Shown here: piece after piece, positions 4,101-28,389 of the stretch | Numbering within the stretch: the stretch's first letter is position 1 | Layout of the letters: each line of letters begins with the position of its first letter | Assembly (NCBI GenBank): GCA_030432295.1 | Contig: JAUIHI010000037.1 | Coordinates: 1-62,445 of the forward strand | DNA length: 62,445 nucleotides | Source: Anaerolineae bacterium | GTDB taxonomy: Bacteria > Chloroflexota > Anaerolineae > Caldilineales > Caldilineaceae | Direction: 5' to 3' | The notes under the pieces: model-generated | Told to the model about the DNA's origin: nothing | The model's database searches: none | What the model saw: only the letters and a program-made list of their open reading frames with translations | Position numbers and translations under genes: made by a program

Positions 4101-4250
4101 GAGAATCCTCCCGTTCATATACTGCGTTTCTACCAATAATATACACGATTGGTTGCTAACCGGAGTGGTTCGATATGTGATGGGAGACGAAGTTAAAGTT
4201 GGATTTGACGCGCCAGTGGCGACAGGGACTGAAACAGCCGCTCCATCGCC

Positions 4251-4283
4251 GTCAGGCGTGGCGTACCAGAACTCTTCGGCGGC
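4251..4283 (-). pseudogene. Duplicated gene fragment, copy 1
   Basis: A 33-bp segment that recurs at 4572-4604 with 31 of 33 identical bases. On the minus strand both copies read AAEEFWYATPD in one frame, and the differences are mainly at third codon positions, which points to protein-coding ancestry. The surrounding frames are not recognisable. Likely remnants of two related small genes. Confidence 0.4.
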
Positions 4284-4571
4284 TACGGCCCAACGAGTAA
4301 AGATGTCGGTTGCGCAGGTCTATGCGGGAGGCATGTATGTTCTCACTCCCGCAAACGATAGTAGCGTCGATTCAAATTTTCTTGTATACCGAAGTAAAAT
4401 CAAAGAAGTTTTTGGAAATAGAATTTCACGATAATCAGGTTAGGATTGACGAAAATAAAGCTAATTTATGTCTAAAAATTTTCTTGGAACTACTGAGTCA
4501 GTTCGTTAAAATTTTCGGCTATAAACTTTAGCACAACGCATCTGGTTCAAATTTACCGGAAGAAATTTGTC

Positions 4572-4604
4572 GTCGGGCGTGGCATACCAGAACTCTTCGG
4601 CGGC
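4572..4604 (-). pseudogene. Duplicated gene fragment, copy 2
   Basis: Second copy of the 33-bp segment at 4251-4283, again reading AAEEFWYATPD on the minus strand. It continues as an open stretch of roughly 20 codons that becomes AT-rich. Too short to name a family. Confidence 0.4.
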
Positions 4605-4625
4605 AGTGGTGCAGAGGTACGAAAA

Positions 4626-4833: not shown

Positions 4834-7800
4834 ATGCCAGCCAACCACCCCATCTCTATCCTCTTCGTCACCGCCAACCCGGACGGGACCGAAAGCCTGG
4901 CCACCGACGTGGAAGCCCGCCGGATCGATGAAGCTCTCTGGAACTCGCTGAACCGGGAGCGCTTCGCCGTCCATAAATTGGGGGCGGCCCGCATCGGTGA
5001 CTTGGCCGTATACCTGCGCCGCCACCGCCCCCGCATTCTCCACATCGCCCTGCACGGGACAGCCGACGGGCTGCTCTTCAACGACCCGGAGGACTGGCAG
5101 GAGCAGACGCTGGCCGGGGAAGAACTGGCCGCGATTGTGGCCACCTATCAGGCGGAAGCAAAAGAGAAGCTGGGACTGGTGGTGCTGGCCGGCTGCGGCA
5201 CGGAAAATTCCGCCCGGCTTCTCTGCGCCCACACCGGCTGTGCCATCGGCACCAGCGACGACATCAGCGACCGGGCAGTGCTCCATTTCTCTCCCGCCTT
5301 CTACGCCGCCCTGGGCGACGAACGCACTGTCGGCAACGCCTTCGACAACGCCGTTGCCGAGGTGCAGGCCCACGGCCAGCAGAGCGACGCGGCGCTACTG
5401 CGTCTGCTCACCCGTCCCGGCATCGACCCCCACAGCCTGCGCCTGGACACGCCCACCCGCCGCCCCCTCTCCGACGCCCATCTGGACTATCTGCGCCGCT
5501 GGTTTGGCAAGGGGTGGGCCACCGTCAATCTGGCCGACATCTCCCAGCGCCAGGAGCGGGCCAGCCTGCTGGATGTCTACGTGCCCCTGCCCGTGGATTT
5601 CACACTGGACATCGAAGTCAAGGATCACCAGATTGTGGACTGGTGGGTCCATAGGGAGGCAGGGGCGGAACTTAACGCAGAGGCGCAAGGACGCAGAGGC
5701 GCAATCCGTAGGGGCGGTTTGCAACCGCCCGACGCCCCCGACGACGACACCGACGGGGCACACGAAATCGAACCCGCCAAAGAACGGGTCTGGGCTGATC
5801 TGGGCGTGGGCGAGACAGCGTTGCAGACGATTGTGGACGGCATTCAGGCCAAAATCGACGAACGCAAAAACGACGAACCGACTCTGCGCTGGAATCGCAA
5901 CCTCACAGAAAGCTGGCCGTTGGAGGCCGAACACGCGGCCTGCGTGCAGCCCCGCTTTGTCCTGCTGGGCGAGCCGGGCGGGGGCAAGAGTAGCTTTCTA
6001 CGCCACCTGGCCCTCTGTCTGGCCGGGGAGATGCGCCGCCGGGCCGGGCAAACGGATATGCCTGCCAACGCCAGTCTGGAGTCTCTGGGCGTAGACCTGC
6101 CGGATGTCTACACCCCCATCTACATTGAACTGCGGGCACTGGTCGCCAGCCACTTTCCACCCCTCTCGCCGGTCGAAGGCCCAAGCATACGCCTGCCCGA
6201 CGTGGACGATTTCTGGCGTTATGTGCAGGAAGAGTTGGGGGCTGGGCTGGCTGGCTTTGAGACAGAACTGCGCACCCTCTTCGCCGACAACGAAGCGATT
6301 CTGCTCCTGGACGGGCTGGACGAGATTCCCCAGGCCGGGGACAAACGGCGACGGGATCAGGTGAAGGCGTTCATTGCTTCTCTGCTGCGATCCTACCCAA
6401 GTCTGCGGGTGATTGTGACCAGCCGCCCCCACGCCTACCGGCGGGGCGAATGGGCGCTGGACGGCTTTGGCCGGGCCGAACTGGAACATTTGGACTGGGC
6501 GCGGCTGGACAAACTGGCCCATTCCCTCTTTGCCGCAATGAATGGCAATACAAACGGCGATGAGGCAAAAGCCTTTGTACAGGCCATCCGTGACGATCCC
6601 CACATCGAGCCGGGGCTGCATCGCAACCCCCTCTTTTTTACCCTTCTGGCCGCACTCTATCTGGCCTCGGACCCGAATGATCGCCGTCTGCCCGCCACCC
6701 GGGCCGATCTCTACCGTCAATCCACCGACCTGCTTTTGGGCCGCTGGACCCAGCGCCGGGGCACAGGCCCATTGGTGGACAATCCACCGGAACATTTGCG
6801 CCCGGTATTGGAAAGTTTGGCTTGTACGATCACAGAGCAGAGCGAAACAGGCCAGGATACGACTCTCTTTGACGCCGGCCTATTGGACCAGATTTTGCGC
6901 AGGGCACGGCTGCGCATTCTCCCCTTGGACGTTTCTGATTATCTCTCCCAGCACGCGGGCATACTGGTGGAACAGGCCCCGGAGGAATTCGCCTTTGTCC
7001 ATCGCAGCTTTCAGGAGCATCTGGCCGCCTGCGAATTGACCCACCAGATATCCCAGCCACGCATCCCCCCGATTCCAGAGGAACGGCGCTTTCCGGCGGG
7101 GCTGCTGCAGCGGGTGCTGGATCGGCCCGACCTGTGGGAGAATGTGGCCGGGCTGGCCGCGGATGAACTGCTGGCCCAGAAGCGCCAGGATGAACTGGTG
7201 CGCCTGCTGGTTGATATGGCCCGGCCCTATGACCGGGAACGGACCGCGCCCCAGACTGCACTGCTGGCCCTCTCCATTGCCAATCGCTTGAAACTGCTGG
7301 ACGACGAGCTGGAGGAGTTCGATCGCCGCCAGTTACTGTGCCGGGTCGCCTTGACTGCCCTGAGCGACATCGAACGCTTCGATCCGGAACAGCGGCTGAT
7401 CGCCGGGCAACTGCTGGGCGCCCGGCCCGGTCTGGACCCGCGCCCCGGCGTGGGGTTGCAGGCGAATAGGCTACCTGATATTGCGTGGGTAAAGATTCCC
7501 AAAGTGGATGAAAAGAGCCAAAGCGAATTCATCTATCAGGAGGGGAAACGGGATTCGCCGGACGACTTCTGGATGGCTCGGTATCCCATCACCTACGCCC
7601 AGTTTCAGACATTCAAAGATGCCGACGACGGCTGGTGCAATTCTCACTGGTGGGACGGATTGGCGCTGAACGATCAGGACAAGCCGGGCGACCAGGCATT
7701 TCCCTTCTGGAATCACTCCAGAGAGAGGGTAAGCTGGTATCAGGCCATCGCCTTCTGCCGCTGGCTCACAGAACAGGCCCGGCAACACCCGGAACTGTTA

Positions 7801-8259
7801 CCTGCTGAGGCCCAGGACAGAGCGGACTGGCGCATAACCCTGCCCACGGAATGGCAGTGGGAGAAGGCGGCCCGAGGCCACGACGGACGACAGTACCCCT
7901 GGGGTGGCGACAGCTACCAGCGCGGCTACGCCAACATCAACGAAACCCGTGAGAATGCCGGTCCCCACAATTTGCAGACCACCAGCGCGGTGGGGATGTA
8001 CCCCCAGGGCGGTACGCCCAGCGGCCTGCTGGACCTGAGCGGCAACGTCTGGGAGTGGTGTCTTAACGAATATGAAACTCCAGGTAATTTTCAGGAAAAC
8101 GGAAGTGAAGGCCGCGTCGTGCGGGGCGGTTCGTGGTACGACTTCCACTACCACGCTTCCGCCGTGTCCCGCGGCTGGTACAGCCCGTACAGTCGGGACA
8201 ACGGCAACGGTTTTCGGGTGGTCTGGTCGGCGTCTGTCCCTGTCACCTCTGCTCTCTGA
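4834..8259 (+). CDS. CHAT-NACHT-FGE protein, candidate DGR variable protein
   Basis: A 1141-residue multidomain protein. Residues about 5-190 form a CHAT caspase-like protease domain with the dyad H74 (HIALHG) and C121 (LAGCG). Residues about 370-540 are a NACHT-type STAND ATPase: Walker A GEPGGGKS (K385), Walker B LLLDGLDE (D493), then a helical part ending in the typical FVHRSFQEHLAA near residue 725. Residues about 880-1133 are a formylglycine-generating-enzyme/C-type-lectin fold module (LPTEWQWEKAARG, GNVWEWC, VVRGGSW, NGFRVV). The final part carries runs of NNC codons typical of a DGR variable region. A 20-residue linker near residue 280 is encoded by intergenic-type repeats. The likely role is a ligand sensor coupled to protease activation (defence or programmed death). 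The downstream neighbour is a toxin-antitoxin pair. Confidence 0.88.
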   Translation: MPANHPISILFVTANPDGTESLATDVEARRIDEALWNSLNRERFAVHKLGAARIGDLAVYLRRHRPRILHIALHGTADGLLFNDPEDWQEQTLAGEELAAIVATYQAEAKEKLGLVVLAGCGTENSARLLCAHTGCAIGTSDDISDRAVLHFSPAFYAALGDERTVGNAFDNAVAEVQAHGQQSDAALLRLLTRPGIDPHSLRLDTPTRRPLSDAHLDYLRRWFGKGWATVNLADISQRQERASLLDVYVPLPVDFTLDIEVKDHQIVDWWVHREAGAELNAEAQGRRGAIRRGGLQPPDAPDDDTDGAHEIEPAKERVWADLGVGETALQTIVDGIQAKIDERKNDEPTLRWNRNLTESWPLEAEHAACVQPRFVLLGEPGGGKSSFLRHLALCLAGEMRRRAGQTDMPANASLESLGVDLPDVYTPIYIELRALVASHFPPLSPVEGPSIRLPDVDDFWRYVQEELGAGLAGFETELRTLFADNEAILLLDGLDEIPQAGDKRRRDQVKAFIASLLRSYPSLRVIVTSRPHAYRRGEWALDGFGRAELEHLDWARLDKLAHSLFAAMNGNTNGDEAKAFVQAIRDDPHIEPGLHRNPLFFTLLAALYLASDPNDRRLPATRADLYRQSTDLLLGRWTQRRGTGPLVDNPPEHLRPVLESLACTITEQSETGQDTTLFDAGLLDQILRRARLRILPLDVSDYLSQHAGILVEQAPEEFAFVHRSFQEHLAACELTHQISQPRIPPIPEERRFPAGLLQRVLDRPDLWENVAGLAADELLAQKRQDELVRLLVDMARPYDRERTAPQTALLALSIANRLKLLDDELEEFDRRQLLCRVALTALSDIERFDPEQRLIAGQLLGARPGLDPRPGVGLQANRLPDIAWVKIPKVDEKSQSEFIYQEGKRDSPDDFWMARYPITYAQFQTFKDADDGWCNSHWWDGLALNDQDKPGDQAFPFWNHSRERVSWYQAIAFCRWLTEQARQHPELLPAEAQDRADWRITLPTEWQWEKAARGHDGRQYPWGGDSYQRGYANINETRENAGPHNLQTTSAVGMYPQGGTPSGLLDLSGNVWEWCLNEYETPGNFQENGSEGRVVRGGSWYDFHYHASAVSRGWYSPYSRDNGNGFRVVWSASVPVTSAL
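5671..5732 (+). repeat. Intergenic-type repeat inserted in frame
   Basis: This piece of the CHAT-NACHT gene contains the tandem word ACGCAGAGGCGCAAGG and a palindrome GGGCGGTTTGCAACCGCCC (5712-5730), both of the style seen in bacterial intergenic repeats. It encodes the Arg/Gly/Ala-rich linker between the CHAT and NACHT domains without breaking the frame. Confidence 0.55.
8119..8220 (+). other. Putative DGR variable region (VR)
   Basis: Codons for residues 1102-1107 are TAC GAC TTC CAC TAC CAC, all NNC, as expected when template AAC codons are mutated at both adenines. A conserved block (ASAVSR) follows, then GGC TGG TAC AGC, then CCG, TAC AGT, CGG, GAC AAC GGC AAC and the invariant GFRVV. 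The spacing matches the FGE-type DGR template pattern in which these positions are Asn: six positions, ASAVSR, four, P, two, R, four, GFR. No second copy of this sequence and no reverse transcriptase gene is visible in the window, so the template repeat must lie elsewhere or be lost. Confidence 0.7.
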
Positions 8260-8291
8260 TACTCTGATCTCCGATCTCTGATCTTCTCTGT

Positions 8292-8308
8292 CCGAACCGA
8301 AGGTTCGG
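8292..8308 (+). other. Hairpin downstream of VR (DGR-type cruciform candidate)
   Basis: CCGAACC-GAA-GGTTCGG, a perfect 7-bp stem with a GAA loop, lies 33 bp after the stop codon and about 70 bp after the variable region. DGR target genes commonly have a short inverted repeat with a GNA-type loop just after the VR that helps mutagenic homing. It could alternatively be an ordinary intergenic repeat. Confidence 0.5.
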
Positions 8309-8437
8309 CCGCCCCGCAGGGGCGCTCTGGGGGGGTGTGGGGGGCGTAGCGCCCCCACGTCCTATTACCGCCGTAGGCGGTCGAATTTTTTCGCAGATTG
8401 GCTTGCGCGGCCCTGTAACGCAAGCTGTCAGCTTGCG
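8309..8437. repeat. Spacer with stacked palindromes
   Basis: Between the large receptor gene and the toxin-antitoxin pair are a G-rich tract (8320-8345), a hairpin around ACCGCCGTAGGCGGT (about 8369-8383) and a 9-bp perfect palindrome CGCAAGCTG-T-CAGCTTGCG (8419-8437). These look like dispersed intergenic repeats. No gene is supported. Confidence 0.5.
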
Positions 8438-8454
8438 CCACTTTCTGCTATACT
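8425..8454 (+). promoter_or_regulatory. Possible promoter of the toxin-antitoxin operon
   Basis: CTGTCA, an 18-bp spacer and TATACT lie about 60 bp before the antitoxin start. The -35 element is inside the palindrome at 8419-8437, which could therefore be the antitoxin operator. The -10 is good, the -35 is weak. Confidence 0.35.
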
Positions 8455-8514
8455 CATTCTGCTCCCATCCGATGGGGGTCAGGCGGCCCGGAATGGAAAA
8501 CGACGGAGGTTGCG

Positions 8515-8739
8515 ATGATTCAGATACCCGAAGCACAGGCTGTTGAAAATTTCCCGAAACTACTCCACGAAGCCATAAACGGTCAGGAAGTTGTAATTAT
8601 CGACAGTGACGGCAACGCCTTCAAGCTGATCGCGTTGACACGCATCCCCACTCCGTTGTTCGGCAGCGCCAAAGGTCAGGTATCGTTCGGGCCAGATTTC
8701 GATGAACCGATCGAAGGATTTGAGGAATATATGCCGTGA
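8515..8739 (+). CDS. Phd/YefM-type antitoxin
   Basis: A 74-residue protein matching the short antitoxins encoded before COG3744-type PIN toxins: an N-terminal MIQIPEAQAVENFPKLLHEAINGQ segment that forms the DNA-binding Phd fold, followed by VVIIDSDGNAFKLI and an acidic C-terminal tail that would wrap the toxin. GGAGG lies 5 bases before the ATG. It overlaps the toxin start by 4 bp (GTGA), so the pair is translationally coupled. As in related modules it probably represses its own operon. Confidence 0.8.
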   Translation: MIQIPEAQAVENFPKLLHEAINGQEVVIIDSDGNAFKLIALTRIPTPLFGSAKGQVSFGPDFDEPIEGFEEYMP

Positions 8740-9131
8740 AACTGTTGCTCGATACCCACGCATTTCTCTGGTTCATCGGCGGTGATCCCCAACTGAGTAC
8801 GTACGCCCGTCAATGCATCGAGGACCCCAGCAATCAACGCTACCTCAGCATTGCAAGCGTCTGGGAAATCACCATCAAGTCCAGTCTGGGGCGGCTGATC
8901 GTACCTACACCTCCGAGCCGACTGATAAACGATCACATCTGGTCGAATTCGATTGCATTGCTCGCCATCTCATCCGAACATCTGGATGGGGTACACGCGT
9001 TGCCCTATCATCACAAAGACCCCTTCGACCGTTTGATAATTGCGCAGGCCGTTCACGAAGGAATGACACTGGTCAGCAAAGACCAGGCGCTGGCTGCATA
9101 CAATCTGCCTGTGCTGTGGAATGCCGCCTGA
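8736..9131 (+). CDS. PIN domain ribonuclease toxin (VapC-like)
   Basis: A 131-residue PIN-domain protein starting with GTG. The family pattern is clear: LLLDTHAFLW at the N-terminus with the first metal-binding Asp (D6), SVWEI in the middle, and KDPFDRLIIAQA followed by LVSKD near the end, which supply the remaining acidic residues of the magnesium site. Such proteins cut RNA, often tRNA, when their antitoxin is degraded. It closes a two-gene operon right after the CHAT-NACHT receptor gene; whether the neighbourhood is functional or a defence-type cluster is open. Confidence 0.88.
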   Translation: MKLLLDTHAFLWFIGGDPQLSTYARQCIEDPSNQRYLSIASVWEITIKSSLGRLIVPTPPSRLINDHIWSNSIALLAISSEHLDGVHALPYHHKDPFDRLIIAQAVHEGMTLVSKDQALAAYNLPVLWNAA

Positions 9132-9411
9132 CCCAGCAGCGGGCCAACCCACCACCGCCCTGCCGACGCGCTGTGCATCTGTTCGTCGCCTCCTCTCCCC
9201 TTCACAAAACAGCTCCCCAGCCGGGAATACTCCTTTCGACAGGCCTCAGATGTCTTCTCGTGCTGCTCTCTTGCCAGCGCCTGTCCCCGCTTGAACCCAT
9301 TGACAGTCAAAAATAATCCACAGATCACACAGGTTTACACCGACAAAATCCGTGCAAATCCCTCCCATCCGTGACCATCCGTGTCCTTTTGCATTTCACG
9401 TCGAACATGAT
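9132..9411. other. Spacer with repeat words, no gene
   Basis: No gene is supported. The stretch 9305-9400 is built from words such as ATCCGTG and CACAGATCACACAGG that recur in other spacers (for example around 10340-10400 and 47130-47215), marking it as dispersed intergenic repeat material. Confidence 0.45.
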
Positions 9412-9440
9412 TTGCACAAGTTTTGCAAATGTATTATACT
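9412..9440 (+). promoter_or_regulatory. Sigma-70-type promoter of the first ABC exporter operon
   Basis: TTGCAC, a 17-bp spacer and TATACT, located 47 bp before the ATPase start codon. Both hexamers match the housekeeping consensus in five of six positions (TTGACA, TATAAT) and the spacing is ideal. Confidence 0.65.
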
Positions 9441-9486
9441 GAAAACATAGACAAGCACAGCACGACGTTCTCGAAGGAGAAACCCG

Positions 9487-10329
9487 ATGTTCCAGAATCT
9501 ATTCGCACGCAAAGCACAGAACCCGAAGGCAAACCAGCCCGCCCCCCACCTCATCGACCTGAACGATGTGGTCAAGAGCTACGCCACCGCGGCGGGGGAT
9601 TTCCTGGCCCTGAAGAATGTGAGCCTGCAAGTGGACGGCGGCGAGTTTGTGGCCGTCATCGGCAAGTCGGGCAGCGGCAAATCGACCCTCTCCAATATGA
9701 TTACGGGTATCGACCGCCCCAGCAGCGGCGCGGTGACTGTCAACGGCACCTCCGTGGACCGAATGAGCGAAGGGCAGATCGCCCGCTGGCGGGGACTCTC
9801 CGTCGGGGTGGTCTTCCAGTTCTTCCAACTGCTGCCCACCCTCACCGTCCTGGAAAATGTGATGCTGCCTATGGATTTCTGCAACGTCTACAGCGGTCGC
9901 GAGCGGCGGGAGCGGGCCATCCATCTGCTGGAACAGGTGGATATGGCCGAGCAGATGGACAAACTGCCCACGGCCATCTCCGGCGGCCAGCAGCAGCGGG
10001 TGGCGATTGCCCGCTCCCTGGCCACGGACCCGCCGATTGTGGTGGCCGACGAACCGACCGGCAATCTGGATTCCCGCACCGCCGACGCCATCTTCAGCCT
10101 CTTCGAGGGGCTGGTGGACGGGGGCAAGACGATTCTGATGGTCACCCACGACGACGACCTGGCCGAGCGGGTCACCCGCACAGTGACGATTGCCGACGGG
10201 CGCATTGTGGACGACGTGCGCAGTGGGCGGCGTGTCCAGTCGGTGGCCCAGCCTGTCCGGGAGCAGACGGTCATCCGGCCCATTCCCGTCTTGCAGCCCA
10301 ATGGCGTGGGGGCCTATGCAGTGTCTTAG
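9487..10329 (+). CDS. ABC transporter ATP-binding protein (MacB/LolD type)
   Basis: A 280-residue cytoplasmic ATPase that would drive the adjacent FtsX-type permease. Walker [10 protein letters not shown] (residues 59-67), Q-loop region [19 protein letters not shown], signature [14 protein letters not shown] (about 165-178), Walker [12 protein letters not shown] and H-loop VTHDDD are all present. The [14 protein letters not shown] segment is typical of the MacB/LolD/FtsE group rather than importers. There are about 20 extra residues before the domain and a 40-residue tail. GAAGGAG precedes the ATG by 7 bases. First gene of a three-gene exporter operon. Confidence 0.93.
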
Positions 10330-10404
10330 TTTGTATACACGGATAGAAAAGAACACAGATAGGACTTAAAGCTATCCGTGTTTCTTCCCATCCGTGTATA
10401 CAAA
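10330..10404 (+). repeat. Intergenic palindrome (TTTGTATACACGGAT family)
   Basis: Outer arms of 15 bp (10330-10344 and 10390-10404) are perfect complements, with an imperfect inner pair. It starts one base after the ATPase stop codon and may attenuate or stabilise the operon mRNA. The same words occur at 47150-47215 and 61785-61800. Confidence 0.6.
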
Positions 10405-10481
10405 AAATTCCTGCGACCTCTCGCACCCGAAACGTAATTTTGCCGGTCAGGTACTACTGAAAGCACTACAAAGAGGGACTT

Positions 10482-12926
10482 ATGATTAGCCCACGCTGGC
10501 GCAAAGTGTTGCGCGATTTATCCTCCAACCGAACACGGACACTGCTGGTCATCGCTTCGATTGCCGTGGGTATCTTTGCGGTGGGCACAGTCCAGCAGTT
10601 GCAGGCGGTGATTCTCAGCGAGTTGCAGGCCGTCTACGACCGCAGCAACGCGGCCCAGGCCACGATTTTTGCTGGCAATCTGGACAGCAACCTGCTGGAG
10701 AGCGTGCGCAAGATGCCCGAAGTGGCCGCGGCTGAGGGGCGCAATTCCCTGGGCGTCTCGGTGGAGACCGCGCCCGGCGTCTGGCAGAGCCTGAACGTCA
10801 CCGCCATCGAGGATTTCCAGACCAATGCCATCAATCTGATCGAACCGCTCTACGAAAGCCGCCGCCACCCGGACTTCGGCGCGACAGCCACAGCCTGGCC
10901 GGTCAAGGACGAGATTGTGCTGGAACGCAGCGCGCTCGATTCTTCCAGCGCCCTGCCCGCGGACCTGCGCCTGGGCGACACTCTCAATCTGGAGACGGAA
11001 GAGGGCAAGGCCCGCAGCGTGCGGGTCAGCGGCCTGGTCTACGACGCCAACGCCTTCCCCACCACCTTTACCAGCAGCGCCAGCGGCTATGTGGATTTCG
11101 ACACTTTTGAGCGGCTGAGGGGCAGCCGCACCTTTTCCCAACTCAATCTGCGCTTCAACGGCACGCCCGAACAATTGATGGATTTAGAGTACATCACCGG
11201 GCTGGCCGACGGGGTGGGCGACAAAATTGAGAAGAGCGGGCGCACAGTCCAGCGCATTCAGGTCCCCGAACCGGGCGAGCTGCTCTTCCAGAGCATTTTC
11301 GATTCCCTGGCCCTGCTCCTGACACCTCTGGGATTGCTGGCCCTGCTGCTCAGCGGCTTTCTGGTCGTCAACACCATTTCGGCGCTGATGGCCCAGCAGG
11401 TGCGCCAGATCGGTGTGATGAAGTCCATCGGCGCCCAGCGGGGGCAGATCGTCTGGATGTATCTGGGCACAATCTTCTTTCTCAGCCTGCTGGCCCTGGC
11501 CGTGGCGATTCCGGTGACGACGCTGGTGGCGGGCGGAATCCTCCAGTTCCTGGGCATCTTTATCAATGTGGACTTCCCGGCCTTTGCCCTGCCCGTCAAT
11601 GTGCTGCTGATTCAGATCGGCGTGGGGGTGATTGTGCCCCTGCTGGCTGCGCTCTTTCCCATCTACCGGGGCACAGGCGTCACCGTGCGCGAGGCCATCT
11701 CCGACTACGGCGTGGGCAACGGCGGCGAAGATTGGCTGGGCCGTACGCTGGCCCGTATCCGTCTGCTGGGCCGCCCCTTGCAGATTTCCCTGCGCAACAC
11801 CTTCCGTCGCCGTGCCCGGCTGGTGGTGACGCTGATTATGCTGGTGCTGGGCGGGATGATCTTTATGACTGTGGGCAGCGTGCGGGCATCCCTGGCCGGT
11901 CTGATCGAGCAGGGGCTGGCCTACAACCAGTTTGACATTCAGATTCAGTTCGAGCGCTCCTACCGCACCGCGCAGATCGAGCAGGCCGTGCGCACGGTCT
12001 CGGCGGTGGAGGGGGTGGAGAGCTGGCAGTCGGGTCTCGTCACCCGCATCCGCCCCGACGGCACAGAGAGCAACCCGCTGACCGTCTTTGCCCTGCCTGC
12101 CGAGAGTGCGATGGTCCAGCCGGCCCTGGCCGAAGGGCGCTGGCTCCTGGCCGGGGACGAGAACGCGATTGTCGTCAGCCAGAATGTGCTCAACACCGAT
12201 GACGACATTACTGTCGGCAGCCAGATTGTGCTGGACGCGTCGGGCAAAGAGGGACTGTGGACCGTCGTGGGCATTGTTCAGTCTCTCTCCGGCCCGCCCA
12301 ACCAGATTCCCGTCTACGTCAACCTGCCCTACTATGCCCGCTATACCGACAGTGTGGGCCAGGGGGACAGCGTGCAGGTTACGGTCGACCGGGCCGCCTT
12401 TGCCAGCCTGGATGAGGCAGTGCAAACCCTGGAAACGACGCTGGAAGCGTCTGGGCTGCGGGTGGCTTCCACCTTTACCGTCGATATTATCCGACAGATT
12501 TCCGGCGGCTTTTTCGACATTATCATCTACCTGCTCTCCGGCATGGGTGTGCTGATTGCTACCGTCGGTGCGCTGGGGCTGATGGGCACCATGAGTACGA
12601 ATGTGTTGGAACGGACACGGGAGATCGGCGTCATGCGCGCCATCGGTGCCTCCGACGGCGCGGTGCAGTCGATTGTGATTGTGGAAGGCGTCATCATCGG
12701 CCTGATCAGTTGGCTGATCGGTGCGGCCCTGGCTTTCCCGATGGGTGCGCTGCTGAGCAGTGCGGTGGGGCAAGCCCTTTTCAGCCGTGGCCTGCCCTAC
12801 ACCTTTTCATCCGGCGGTGTTATCGCCTGGTTTGTGATTGTGGCCGTGCTGGCCGGTTTCGCCAGCTTCCTCCCCGCCTGGAACGCCTCGCGGCTGACCG
12901 TGCGGGAGGTGTTGGCGTATGAATAA
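10482..12926 (+). CDS. ABC transporter permease, duplicated FtsX type
   Basis: An 814-residue membrane protein with two FtsX/MacB core units. An N-terminal helix (about 18-40) and a periplasm-side domain (MacB_PCD-like) are followed by helices around residues 268-400, then a second N-terminal-type helix near 450, a second extracytoplasmic domain and final helices around 680-805. The repeated hallmark QIGVMKSIGAQRGQI (first half) and EIGVMRAIGASDGAV (second half) sits in the cytoplasmic coupling loop of each unit. Such double permeases act as exporters or mechanotransmitters, pairing with the upstream ATPase and the downstream adaptor. AGAGGG lies just before the ATG. Confidence 0.92.
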   Translation: MISPRWRKVLRDLSSNRTRTLLVIASIAVGIFAVGTVQQLQAVILSELQAVYDRSNAAQATIFAGNLDSNLLESVRKMPEVAAAEGRNSLGVSVETAPGVWQSLNVTAIEDFQTNAINLIEPLYESRRHPDFGATATAWPVKDEIVLERSALDSSSALPADLRLGDTLNLETEEGKARSVRVSGLVYDANAFPTTFTSSASGYVDFDTFERLRGSRTFSQLNLRFNGTPEQLMDLEYITGLADGVGDKIEKSGRTVQRIQVPEPGELLFQSIFDSLALLLTPLGLLALLLSGFLVVNTISALMAQQVRQIGVMKSIGAQRGQIVWMYLGTIFFLSLLALAVAIPVTTLVAGGILQFLGIFINVDFPAFALPVNVLLIQIGVGVIVPLLAALFPIYRGTGVTVREAISDYGVGNGGEDWLGRTLARIRLLGRPLQISLRNTFRRRARLVVTLIMLVLGGMIFMTVGSVRASLAGLIEQGLAYNQFDIQIQFERSYRTAQIEQAVRTVSAVEGVESWQSGLVTRIRPDGTESNPLTVFALPAESAMVQPALAEGRWLLAGDENAIVVSQNVLNTDDDITVGSQIVLDASGKEGLWTVVGIVQSLSGPPNQIPVYVNLPYYARYTDSVGQGDSVQVTVDRAAFASLDEAVQTLETTLEASGLRVASTFTVDIIRQISGGFFDIIIYLLSGMGVLIATVGALGLMGTMSTNVLERTREIGVMRAIGASDGAVQSIVIVEGVIIGLISWLIGAALAFPMGALLSSAVGQALFSRGLPYTFSSGGVIAWFVIVAVLAGFASFLPAWNASRLTVREVLAYE

Positions 12927-12944
12927 AGTGAAACTTGACCAGTG

Positions 12945-13070: not shown

Positions 13071-13135
13071 AGTCCTGAGTTATCCCAAAATCTGCGTAAT
13101 CTGCGTTCCTATATTTTCTTGAAAGGATCGGACCT

Positions 13136-14428
13136 ATGAAAAAGCTTATTCTCCTACTCGTCGTGGCAAGTGTGGCGCTGGTCGGTTTTGTCTTTGCCCG
13201 TGACCAGTTCCCCCAGAACAGCGAAGCGGACGCGACCGCACAGGCTGAAGCTGCTGCGCCCATTCTGCCCGCTATCAAAGCAGGCAACAGCACAATTGTA
13301 GAAGCCCGTGTCGTCCCCAACCGGGAGGCCGGGCTGAGTATGGCCGCCAGCGGTCTGGTGACGGAAGTATTCATCGCCAACGGGGACCGGGTGGAGGCGG
13401 GCGATCCGCTGATTCAGTTGAGCAATGCCCGCCAGGCCGCGGCGGTGGCCCAGGCCGAAGCCAACCTGCGCAATGCAGAGCTGCGGGTGGCTGAATTGCA
13501 GGCCCCGGCTCGCGCCGAGGAGATCGCCCGTTATCAGGCCTCCATCACTCTGGCCCAGGCTGGCTTGCAGCAGGTGTTGGACGGTGCGGCCAACGGCGAA
13601 GTCGTAGCCGCCCGCAGCCGTCTGGCCAGCGCAGACGCGGCCCGTCGCGAGGCCCAGGCCGCCTATGACAGGGTGAGCTGGCGCAATGACATCGGCGCGC
13701 TGCCCCAGTCCTCCGCCCTGGAGCAGGCCACCAACGATTATGTGGCTGCCGAAGCCCAGTTGAACGACCTGCTGGTCGGCCCCCGCCGTGCAGATGTGGT
13801 GCGTGCCCAGGCCGAGATCGCCTCTGCCCAGGCCGAGTTGGACCTCTTCCTGGCTGGCACCCAGAGCGAGACGATTGCCGCGGCCGAGGCCAATGTGGCC
13901 GCGGCCCAGGCCGTGCTGATGGATGCCCAGGCCGCCCTGGCCGAGACGACGCTGCGTGCGCCCTTCGCCGGGACCATCGCCGCGGTGGATGTGGAAGTGG
14001 GCGAGCAGGTGTCGCCCGGCTTGGCCGTCATCCACCTGGCCGACCTGAACACCTGGCGGATCGAGACCGCGGATCTGAGCGAACTGAATGTGGTAGCTGT
14101 GCAGGCCGGGGACAAAGTGGAAATCAGCTTTGACGCCCTGCCCGATGTGGCCCTGGCAGGTCGGGTGAAGCACATCCAGCCCATCGGTGAGAATGTGCAG
14201 GGGGACATCACCTACACTGTGCTGGTGGAACTGGCCGAGCAGGAGGCTCGTCTGCGCTGGAATATGACGGCCCAGACGACGATTACCCCGGACGAGATCG
14301 GGCGGGCCGCGGCCATCTCCGGCGCAGAGGTCCCCGCGGGGATGAGTGTGGCCGACGCGCTGAAGGCGAAGATCAGCGCGGCCCGGGCAGATCAGGCCCA
14401 GACAGCGGTGGAGTTGGCCGGACAGTAG
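13136..14428 (+). CDS. HlyD/MacA-type membrane fusion (adaptor) protein
   Basis: A 430-residue secreted or membrane-anchored adaptor. An N-terminal signal/anchor helix (residues 3-22) is followed by half of a lipoyl domain (LVTEVFIANGDRVEAGDPLIQL), a long Ala/Glu/Gln-rich coiled-coil hairpin (about 95-265), the second lipoyl half (LRAPFAGTIAAVDVEVGEQV) and a beta-barrel domain (DKVEISFDALPDVALAGRV). It would link the upstream permease to its substrate or to the envelope. In a diderm it would contact TolC; no outer-membrane channel gene is present here. The operon ends at the hairpin at 14485. Confidence 0.9.
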   Translation: MKKLILLLVVASVALVGFVFARDQFPQNSEADATAQAEAAAPILPAIKAGNSTIVEARVVPNREAGLSMAASGLVTEVFIANGDRVEAGDPLIQLSNARQAAAVAQAEANLRNAELRVAELQAPARAEEIARYQASITLAQAGLQQVLDGAANGEVVAARSRLASADAARREAQAAYDRVSWRNDIGALPQSSALEQATNDYVAAEAQLNDLLVGPRRADVVRAQAEIASAQAELDLFLAGTQSETIAAAEANVAAAQAVLMDAQAALAETTLRAPFAGTIAAVDVEVGEQVSPGLAVIHLADLNTWRIETADLSELNVVAVQAGDKVEISFDALPDVALAGRVKHIQPIGENVQGDITYTVLVELAEQEARLRWNMTAQTTITPDEIGRAAAISGAEVPAGMSVADALKAKISAARADQAQTAVELAGQ

Positions 14429-16732: not shown

Positions 16733-16843
16733 TCGCCTCTCTCTGCGCCCGCTTTCCTGCGCCATAGGGTAGAGGTCACAAAAACAGCGCCGGGGACTTT
16801 GTCCGGGCGCTTCGTTCTTTGCAGTAGCCATCAGGAGAATCCT

Positions 16844-17830
16844 ATGCCGCTCTGGCTCACCCGCTCGGATGTTGGCTCGCTTTTGACAATGCCCGACGCC
16901 ATCGACGCGGTGGCCGAAGCCTTCCGCCTGCTCTCTGCCGGGCAGACGGCCTTGCCCCTGCGCACGAATATGGCTGTAAGCCGCCACAACGGCAGCCTGC
17001 TGGCTATGCCTGCCTACGTGGGGGGAGAGACCGACAGCCTGGGCGTCAAACTCATCACCCTCTACGGCGACAATCCCCACAACCACAATCTGCCCGCCAT
17101 CCAGGGCAATTTCGTCCTCTTCGATCCGGTGGATGGCCGATTGCTGGCTGTGATGGAAGCCGGGCTGATGACCGCCATCCGCACAGGCGCGTCGGGCGGG
17201 GTGGCGGCCCGGTATCTGGCCCGGCCCGACGCATCTGTCGCGACAATCTTTGGCAGCGGCGCGCAGGCCCCCCACCAATTGGAAGCGGTCATCTGCGAAC
17301 GCCCCATCGAGCGGGTCTGGGTCGTCTCCCGCAGCGCCCAGCACGGCGCCGCCTTTGCCGCTGAAATGGCCGACAAATTCGGCATACCTGTCCAGGCCAC
17401 CGCCGATGTGGAGATGGCCGTGGGGTCCGCGGATATTCTCATCACCGCTACCAGCAGCCACACCCCTCTGTTCAACGGGGAATGGCTGCGGCCCGGCTGC
17501 CACATCAACGCCATCGGCTCCCATCTGCCCACAGCGCGGGAGGTGGACAGCCACACTATTCAGCGAGCCACAGTCGTCACCGACCAGACCAGCGCCTGTC
17601 TGGCCGAAGCGGGCGAACTGGTCATCCCCCTGGCCGCCGGGGAGATCGACACCGGCCACATCCACGCCGAAATCGGCCAGATTGTGGCCGGTCACAGGCC
17701 GGGTCGCACATCGCCGGAGGAAATCACTTTCTTCAAATCCGTGGGGCTGGCCGTGCAGGATGTGGCCGTGGCCCGGCTGGTGGCGGAGAAGGCGCTGGCC
17801 GCCGGTGCAGGAACTGTACTGCCGGAATAG
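16844..17830 (+). CDS. Ornithine cyclodeaminase/mu-crystallin family protein
   Basis: A 328-residue NAD(P)-dependent enzyme of the ornithine cyclodeaminase, alanine dehydrogenase and ketimine reductase family. The substrate-side motif is LMTAIRTGASGGVAARYLA, and a Rossmann fold follows with TIFGSGAQAPHQLEAV. The exact reaction cannot be fixed from sequence: options include ornithine to proline, reductive amination of pyruvate, or imino acid reduction. An ATG 15 codons upstream is in frame, but the one at 16844 has AGGAGA six bases ahead and starts the conserved MPLWLTRSDV. The next gene on the strand is 79 bp downstream. Confidence 0.87.
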   Translation: MPLWLTRSDVGSLLTMPDAIDAVAEAFRLLSAGQTALPLRTNMAVSRHNGSLLAMPAYVGGETDSLGVKLITLYGDNPHNHNLPAIQGNFVLFDPVDGRLLAVMEAGLMTAIRTGASGGVAARYLARPDASVATIFGSGAQAPHQLEAVICERPIERVWVVSRSAQHGAAFAAEMADKFGIPVQATADVEMAVGSADILITATSSHTPLFNGEWLRPGCHINAIGSHLPTAREVDSHTIQRATVVTDQTSACLAEAGELVIPLAAGEIDTGHIHAEIGQIVAGHRPGRTSPEEITFFKSVGLAVQDVAVARLVAEKALAAGAGTVLPE

Positions 17831-17909
17831 CGAATGGCGAGTTGCGAATTGCGGGGGAAATCCGGCACCCCAACTGAAACAATACCCAATCACCCACACC
17901 CCAATCCCT

Positions 17910-18863
17910 ATGCCCACACTCACACCTTTTGAACTCAACAATCCCGAACATCACAGCCTGCTGGCTGCGCTCTGGAACAGCGGCCTGCCCGCGGACCTGG
18001 CCATCTCACCGGAATTTGTCCACTCTGTCACCCGTCCCTTCACGGGGGGCGTGCAGGCCGGGCGCATCGCCGAAGTGGGCGGTCAATCGGTGGGCGCAAT
18101 TTTTGTCAGCGCCCACCCCGGCGCGCCCCCGTCGATGCCCAGCGATATGGGCTGGATCGACGCCATTGCCGTAGACCCAGCCCACCAGCGCCAGGGCATT
18201 GGCCGGGAACTTCTGGCCTGGGCCGAAGGGTGGCTGAACGCCCAGGGAGCATCCACAATTCGCACAGGTGGCGGTCTCCGCCCGCTGACGCCGGGTGTGC
18301 CGGTCGCTGCCACATCTTTCTTTACAGCCTGTGGCTATGCGTTGGATGAAGAGCTTAGCTGGGATGTGGCCCGCAATCTGGCCGACTATACGCGGCCGCC
18401 GTCTCTGCGCGAGGTTCCGGCCGCGGCCAGCCCTGGCCAGCCCGGCCAGGAAGAACTGCTTCTGGGCTTTCTGCGCCGGGAATTTCCGGGGCGCTGGACT
18501 TTTGAGGCCGAAGAACTCCTGCAAGAGGGCGGACGCATCTCCGATTTTATGCTTCTGTGGACAGAAACCGGTGTGGAGGGGGCGTGTCGGCTGACCTTCG
18601 AGGATTCGATCTGGCCGATGGGTCGTTTTTACCCCTACAATCTGCCCCGGCCCTGGGGCCAGCTCGGCTCGATCGGTGTATCGGAAAGTGTGCGCGGCCA
18701 GGGGATGGGGCTTTTCCTGCTCGATGCGGGGCTGCGCCGTCTGCAAAACAACGGGGTCAACGGCTGCGTCATCGACTGGACCGGGCTGCTGGATTTCTAC
18801 GGGAAGGCGGGTTTCACGCCCTTTCATATGTGGGCCGTGCTGTGGAAGAAAGTAGGGGCCTGA
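17910..18863 (+). CDS. Tandem GNAT acetyltransferase
   Basis: A 317-residue protein with two GNAT domains. The first (about 1-155) has the acetyl-CoA loop HQRQGIGRELLAWAE; the second (about 165-317) has VRGQGMGLFLLDAGL and ends with the typical LLDFYGKAGFTPFH. It would acetylate a small-molecule amine or a protein; substrate unknown. The start ATG lacks an obvious Shine-Dalgarno and lies in a spacer made of CAATACCC-type repeats, so the N-terminus is provisional. Its stop is followed after one base by the start of the serine hydrolase gene, so the two are translationally coupled. Confidence 0.85.
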   Translation: MPTLTPFELNNPEHHSLLAALWNSGLPADLAISPEFVHSVTRPFTGGVQAGRIAEVGGQSVGAIFVSAHPGAPPSMPSDMGWIDAIAVDPAHQRQGIGRELLAWAEGWLNAQGASTIRTGGGLRPLTPGVPVAATSFFTACGYALDEELSWDVARNLADYTRPPSLREVPAAASPGQPGQEELLLGFLRREFPGRWTFEAEELLQEGGRISDFMLLWTETGVEGACRLTFEDSIWPMGRFYPYNLPRPWGQLGSIGVSESVRGQGMGLFLLDAGLRRLQNNGVNGCVIDWTGLLDFYGKAGFTPFHMWAVLWKKVGA

Positions 18864-22174: not shown

Positions 22175-22207
22175 ATAGCCACAACCAAATCATCGGGCGC
22201 AAACGGT

Positions 22208-22465
22208 GTGGCGAGAGAGACCCTGACCCCAGGGCGCCGAAGGTGCAAGCCCAGGGAGAGCGCCCCTCCCCCTGGGTGACACTCTCAGGCAAAAGGATCG
22301 TCGCACGGTAGCCGCTCTGGAAAGCGTTGTGTCAGCCTGCCAGAAGTTCGACTTTTCTGAAAAGTCGAACTTCTCATCGGGCCAGCGCAACCACCGACGG
22401 GGCAAATCCCAGTCCGGCTCTCCCCAGCCGGCGGGATCAATCTCTCAGGTCCAGGACAGAGTGTA
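22208..22465 (+). promoter_or_regulatory. Tandem glycine riboswitch
   Basis: Two glycine aptamers in series. Aptamer 1 (about 22208-22327) has GAGAGACC, GGGCGCCGAAGGTGCAAGCC, ACTCTCAGGCAAAAGGA and CTCTGG in the canonical order. Aptamer 2 (about 22326-22464) has ACCACCGACGGGGCAAATCCC, AATCTCTCAGGT and CCAGGACAGAG. GTTGTGT (22326-22332) can pair with GCGCAAC (22385-22391) to form the stem at the start of aptamer 2; a dispersed 15-bp hairpin sits in its loop. A terminator follows at once. Glycine binding should prevent termination and switch on gcvP, the glycine-degrading enzyme. Confidence 0.92.
22342..22374 (+). repeat. AGAAGTTCGACTTTT hairpin inside the riboswitch (F2)
   Basis: Perfect 15-bp arms with loop CTG. 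It sits between the two aptamers in the loop of a peripheral stem of aptamer 2. Same family as hairpins at 14485, 22514 and 43435. Confidence 0.75.
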
Positions 22466-28023: not shown

Positions 28024-28389
28024 TCAGCCAGCGTTATTCTTCTGAGGTCCGTTCCAGTTGACCGATGCAATGGCGTCATCCTGCGGGCCATTCCAGTTGA
28101 CCGATGCGACAGCGTCATCCTGCGGGCCATTCCAGTTGACCGATGCGACGGCGTCATCTAAAGGGCCGTTCCAGTTGACCGATGCGATTGCGTCATCCAA
28201 AGGGCCGTTCCAGTTGACCGATGCAATGGCGTCATCCAAAGGGCCGTTCCAGTTGACCGATGCAAGCATCAATTTTTCACTGTTCCAGTTGACGGCCAGG
28301 GCTTCTGAATTGGTAGCAACCAACGAAATGGCACTGATGATCAAAAGACTGAGGGCGATAATCAGGACAGTTCTGCTCTTGAGGTTCAT
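28024..28389 (-). CDS. Secreted tandem-repeat protein (13-residue ASVNWNGP repeats)
   Basis: A 121-residue protein with a clear signal peptide (residues 1-32, hydrophobic VLIIALSLLIISAISLV, then ATNSEALA). The mature part is almost only repeats: six copies of SVNWNGP spaced 13 residues, with a unit ASVNWNGPLDDAI, preceded by a decayed first unit (AVNWNSEKLML). The DNA repeats at 39 bp. GGGAGAAAAG precedes the ATG. No family is recognised. Repeated Trp/Asn/Gly-Pro units suggest a surface or extracellular structural peptide, an amyloid-like or carbohydrate-binding repeat, or a multi-core peptide precursor; no processing enzyme is adjacent. Confidence 0.8.
   Translation of the reverse strand: MNLKSRTVLIIALSLLIISAISLVATNSEALAVNWNSEKLMLASVNWNGPLDDAIASVNWNGPLDDAIASVNWNGPLDDAVASVNWNGPQDDAVASVNWNGPQDDAIASVNWNGPQKNNAG
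28044..28262. repeat. 39-bp coding tandem repeat
   Basis: Six near-identical 39-bp units within the secreted repeat gene. Differences between units are few and cluster at the Leu/Gln and Ile/Val codons, indicating recent unequal exchange. Confidence 0.85.

Follow-up and report, generated by a model that had tools for sequence, protein, structure and literature searches.

Architecture of the locus

The window analysed is a stretch of 62,445 nucleotides that makes up the whole of contig C37 of a draft Caldilineaceae genome (G000; 6.72 Mb in 61 contigs, estimated completeness 100%). Near its left end, one open reading frame joins CHAT, NACHT, and FGE-type C-type-lectin domains and terminates in a sequence of the DGR variable repeat (VR) type. 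The following features, all on the forward strand, are discussed below:

4834-8259 (+), CHAT-NACHT-FGE gene, a single ORF of 1141 aa, probable former DGR target
4864-5367 (+), CHAT protease-like domain (Pfam; motifs LHGT and AGCGT)
5959-6516 (+), NACHT STAND NTPase (GEPGGGKSS at aa 379, LLLDGLDE at aa 490, TSRP at aa 529)
7552-8226 (+), FGE-type C-type-lectin domain (Pfam, phmmer, Foldseek)
8115-8239 (+), VR, 78-79% identical to the template repeats (TRs) of two congeners
8137-8208 (+), hypervariable VR codons, which are AAC, AGG, or AAT in the TR
8209-8239 (+), invariant, IMH-like 3′ end of the VR, identical to the TR of locus L015
8292-8308 (+), hairpin CCGAACC-GAA-GGTTCGG, of putative role
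8310-8324 (+), hairpin CGCCCC-GCA-GGGGCG, conserved downstream of the VR in four of five relatives checked
8409-8492 (+), probable scar, one copy of an ~80-bp repeat found on both sides of the TR-Avd-RT cassette in congener G030
8515-8739 (+), VapB-like antitoxin ORF (named by eye), adjoining the reverse transcriptase (RT) on the right in G030
8736-9131 (+), VapC/PIN-like toxin ORF (named by eye), syntenic in G030
9487-12926 (+), ABC transporter ATPase and permease genes (9487-10329 and 10482-12926), downstream of the RT in G030

All three domains scored above the Pfam cut-offs within the 1141-aa frame, with CHAT at aa 11-178 (E-value 9e-7), NACHT at aa 376-561 (4.5e-10), and FGE-sulfatase at aa 907-1131 (1.6e-33), which bears out the proposed fusion of a lectin module to NACHT and CHAT. 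The N-terminal part is a predicted CHAT domain by its Pfam score and its two motifs, and the His of LHGT (aa 73-76) and the Cys of AGCGT (aa 119-123) are what we take to be the His-Cys dyad. The NACHT NTPase, with its Walker A and B motifs, sits between the effector and sensor domains, the layout of a STAND sensor.

The FGE part matched PorK/GldK, FGE and EgtB enzymes, as well as TvpA of Treponema denticola (PDB 2y3c), a DGR variable protein; the TvpA match spans the VR (phmmer E 4.5e-7; Foldseek E 8.5e-5). A Foldseek search with the AlphaFold model of the sensor returned FGE-fold proteins, TvpA among them, the pLDDT of the VR being low (about 30-55). The FGE/C-type-lectin fold that had been suggested from the letters alone is thus supported by both Pfam and the TvpA matches. 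Identity as a formylglycine-generating enzyme was rejected, since no Cys occurs after aa 1076 of the protein and its C-terminal part accordingly lacks the catalytic Cys pair.

Two near-identical short stretches (GGCGTGGCxTACCAGAACTCTTCGGCGGC) lie upstream of the gene, at 4250-4290 and 4573-4610, and may be duplication relics. Elsewhere, the window contains tandem glycine riboswitch aptamers at 22202-22463 (Rfam RF00504) and, at 28045-28265, an array in which a 39-bp unit (13 codons if coding) recurs 5.7 times.

The variable repeat and its adenine-directed signature

The VR occupies the last ~125 bp at the 3′ end of the FGE/C-type-lectin domain, as is usual for DGR targets. The original prediction had placed a variable stretch at 8119-8220; the VR is indeed found there, and its actual extent is 8115-8239. 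The letters of 8119-8308 also read as had been described. At its terminus, TCTGTCC is followed by C in the window and by A in both congener TRs, an IMH differing from that of the TR.

The prediction relied on a pattern of NNC codons, and 18 of the 24 codons between GGSW and GFRVV do end in C, against 42% across the whole gene; this count, picked by eye, is a weak one. A test independent of it used the TR sequences of congeners G030 and G027. At the columns common to both TRs, the window differs at 15 of 28 adenines and at 4 of 78 other sites (Fisher p = 1.2e-7), an excess that upholds the proposed DGR variable region. Adenine-directed mutagenesis is likewise upheld by this distribution and by the VR/TR differences within the congeners themselves, which are confined to adenines.

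Comparison with the orthologue of G030 (73% identity) gave a concordant picture. In the VR core, 14 of 24 residues differ, with 14, 9, and 5 changes at codon positions 1, 2, and 3, whereas the rest of the FGE domain shows the opposite bias toward position 3 (17, 18, and 57 changes); the 14 codons past the VR are identical in the two genes. Ordinary synonymous-biased divergence, which the prediction had set against a DGR origin, was therefore clearly not seen. Among the five closest homologues, the mean number of distinct residues per column was 2.92 in the VR and 1.69 elsewhere. At the level of sequence, these comparisons show the 3′ end of the CHAT-NACHT-FGE gene to be the VR of a DGR, about 15 template-adenine positions of which bear the mark of rewriting by that element.

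The hairpin CCGAACC-GAA-GGTTCGG was found after the gene as predicted. It is absent after the VR of G027, which has its own TR, and for this reason its role as a homing hairpin stays putative. The adjacent CGCCCC-GCA-GGGGCG hairpin is present at loci L036, L037, L185, and L038 and absent at L039. Most other VRs have GC hairpins downstream, at varied distances.

DGR cassettes and orthologues in related genomes

Matches to the RVT_1 profile were found in 22 of 46 genomes of the same family, and many of these loci adjoin FGE genes for which a genuine TR/VR pair is present, mismatched almost exclusively at template adenines. The window gene has its closest orthologues in G030 (contig C19, 73%) and G027 (contig C94, 71%), followed by those in G043, G022, and G032 (53-58%). 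They keep the NACHT-FGE part and exchange the N-terminus, which is CHAT in the window and in G027, TIR in G030:C19, and EAD1 in G032.

In G027, the TR lies ~350 bp downstream of the orthologue's VR on the same contig, and the two differ at 12 of 30 adenines and at 0 of 88 other sites. The TR of the same type in G030 is located on contig C216 (L015). Two G030 sensors on separate contigs, C19 (L036/L181) and C22 (L185), match this single TR; the C22 sensor has a different NACHT part and the same FGE/VR type as C19. Over 118 bp, their VRs differ from the C216 TR at 17 and 15 of 28 adenines and at 0 of 90 non-adenine sites, which indicates that a single TR serves two receptors.

In L015, Avd (9185-9529, +) is encoded on the other strand from the TR and RT, and its gene overlaps the RT frame (8131-9213, -) at the 5′ end of the latter; Avd and RT share a strand in G030:C14, G030:C40, G027:C57, and G026:C23. 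At L039 (G022:C663), a truncated TR (CTTGCGGGGCGGGTCGTGGAACAATCATCC...) follows the orthologue's VR, in what looks like another decayed DGR.

Absence of the machinery and a one-repeat scar

The original prediction regarded the VR as a remote DGR target and looked to the rest of the genome for an adenine-mismatched near copy beside a DGR-type RT. In the genome of the window, the RVT_1 profile gave no match, nor did the DGR RT of G030 as a query at E<=10; the latter query matched in G026, G027, G029, G030, and G022. Avd (NF033474) was likewise absent here, with matches above the cut-off in G022, G026, G027, G029, and G030. A search of the genome with the TR as DNA query retrieved the VR itself and short matches at chance level only, and a scan with TR 14-mers gave a count equal to the control. 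None of the three components of an active DGR (RT, TR, and Avd) was therefore found in the genome, and together with the scar described below this runs counter to the idea of a remote target. The lack of RT and TR, along with the non-synonymous bias of the VR divergence, points to a VR that was diversified in the past and whose machinery was later lost.

The region downstream of the gene suggests how this loss took place. On G030:C216 the order is left repeat, TR, Avd (opposite strand; NF033474 over the cut-off), RT, right repeat, VapBC, and ABC transporter; the window, as read from the assembly alone, has the VR gene, one repeat copy, and the same VapBC and ABC transporter genes, the latter 85-91% identical to those of L015. 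By blastn, window positions 8352-8477 align to the left of the C216 TR, and positions 8409-10319, 10483-12930, 13087-14428, and 16827-18851 to the right of the C216 RT, all collinear. The left and right matches overlap at ~8409-8492, which is the repeat present in two copies in G030 and one in the window; within L015, one copy can be aligned to the other. The stretch from the VR to the repeat is shared with G027, where the TR comes next. Relative to the cassette-bearing arrangement, about 1.9 kb of DNA is absent from the window. In the assembled sequence, then, the cassette that relatives keep between such a gene and VapBC is missing, and one ~80-bp repeat is left.

The ancestral order is pieced together from two genomes. 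Contigs of the congeners break off at the junction, and no relative had the VR gene, TR, Avd, RT, and VapBC together on one contig. A comparable pair of direct repeats was not seen around the other DGR cassettes examined in the family.

The scar holds a promoter-like stretch (TTGCGC...TATACT) and a REP-like palindrome. The palindrome, AACGCAAGCTGTCAGCTTGCG, lies at 8418-8443 and is dispersed in many copies across the genomes of the genus.

Two further FGE genes of the same genome bear a VR signature, at ~9021 of L179 (G000:C3) and ~9239 of L178 (G000:C24). Compared with congener TRs, their VRs differ at 22 of 31 adenines and 8 of 91 other sites (p = 6e-11), and at 12 of 19 and 5 of 49 (p = 2e-5), respectively. 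The contigs of both genes are long (383 and 155 kb), and neither gene has a cassette nearby.

Interpretation and alternative explanations

The most probable reading, to which we assign a probability of about 0.8, is that the gene is a former cis target of a DGR that has lost its TR-Avd-RT cassette and now encodes an orphan, static sensor of an NLR-like, immune type. The adenine-directed signature in the VR indicates that the present state was derived by loss and does not represent the site before insertion. Recombination between the two flanking repeat copies probably removed the cassette. The ~80% likeness of the copies in G030 is lower than ideal for recombination, and they may have been more alike in the ancestor of the window; the dispersed REP-like palindrome in the repeat may have helped the deletion and makes another deletion route possible. 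With the cassette gone, the VR, and with it the specificity of the receptor, would be fixed and would change by ordinary mutation alone. By analogy with related systems, the C-terminal lectin face would bind a ligand of an invader, upon which NACHT would open, the protein would oligomerise, and proteolysis by the caspase-like CHAT effector would kill the infected cell or render it dormant (PMC10907252, PMC7159879).

A draft genome of 61 contigs could hide a cassette that exists in the organism and was skipped between the two repeats, or a junction that is misassembled or mixes strains. We consider such an artefact improbable: repeat copies only ~80% alike, as in G030, are unlikely to collapse, no part of a cassette was found anywhere in the assembly, and the two additional VR genes, equally cassette-free on their long contigs, make a fault at one place of the assembly less likely than a genuine loss of the entire DGR machinery. 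Continued diversification in trans by an RT and TR encoded elsewhere has a genuine precedent in the C19 and C22 sensors of G030, with their perfect agreement at non-adenine sites of the C216 TR, and trans activity has been proposed for Thiohalocapsa (PMC10907252). For the window it is improbable, given a genome of 6.7 Mb and 100% estimated completeness without RT, Avd, or TR, where the same queries were positive in congeners, and a cis site that bears a scar. Ordinary divergence of an FGE domain with no DGR history, in which the NNC codons would reflect GC-rich codon use, could draw on the frequency of C-ending codons in the gene as a whole; its probability is close to nil, as the divergence concentrates at TR-adenine columns and at codon positions 1 and 2 and the orthologues carry TRs in cis. 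Codon bias was therefore rejected.

Beyond the loss itself, the presence of three orphan VRs in the same genome, together with a one-repeat scar, allows the reading that recurrent loss of cassettes at flanking repeats locks in selected sensor alleles, leaving germline-fixed receptors, an extension that we regard as unlikely at present.

Significance and comparison with known systems

DGR-diversified NACHT-lectin receptors have been proposed as a form of bacterial adaptive immunity, for which the question is how useful variants are kept. Cassette-bearing congeners and a cassette-free scar make this locus a natural before-and-after pair, and a ligand could be sought for the fixed receptor without ongoing mutation. 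The exchange of CHAT, TIR, and EAD1, and the sharing of one TR by the differing TIR-NACHT (C19) and C22 sensors of G030, show a modularity near that of NLRs.

The antiviral Avs/bNACHT STAND proteins have the same effector-NTPase-sensor layout as the window protein, but their sensors are not DGR lectins. TvpA of T. denticola shares the FGE-type C-type-lectin fold and a C-terminal DGR VR, and is not known to carry NACHT or CHAT.

The closest systems in the literature on RT loss are described in two studies, beyond which nothing closer was found (PMC10907252, PMC7517822). DGR-diversified STAND/NACHT-CLec antigen sensors, whose wider set includes CHAT and TIR effectors, were reported by Dore et al. 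2024 (PMC10907252), along with RT loss, strain variants with a deleted RT, and RT-less loci; CLec-fused STANDs are noted there as untested. Like the window protein, those sensors have a central NACHT or nSTAND and a C-terminal FGE/CLec domain with a DGR VR. The window differs in carrying CHAT, NACHT, and FGE in one chain and in retaining a single-repeat scar in place of the entire TR-Avd-RT cassette; its genome, moreover, contains no DGR RT anywhere. In cyanobacteria, DGR variable proteins also have a C-terminal CLec VR with grafted domains (CHAT, TIR, or peptidase); one of them, all3226, shows remnant TR-VR homology with no RT nearby, and removal of the diversification components after selection was suggested (PMC7517822). 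Unlike these cases, the present one shows relatives that bear the cassette as well as the scar itself, and the absence of RT is genome-wide. What is new is thus a readable one-repeat scar beside cassette-bearing congeners, with the sensor in an apparently frozen state, and a single genome in which three VRs are orphaned and a DGR RT is absent.
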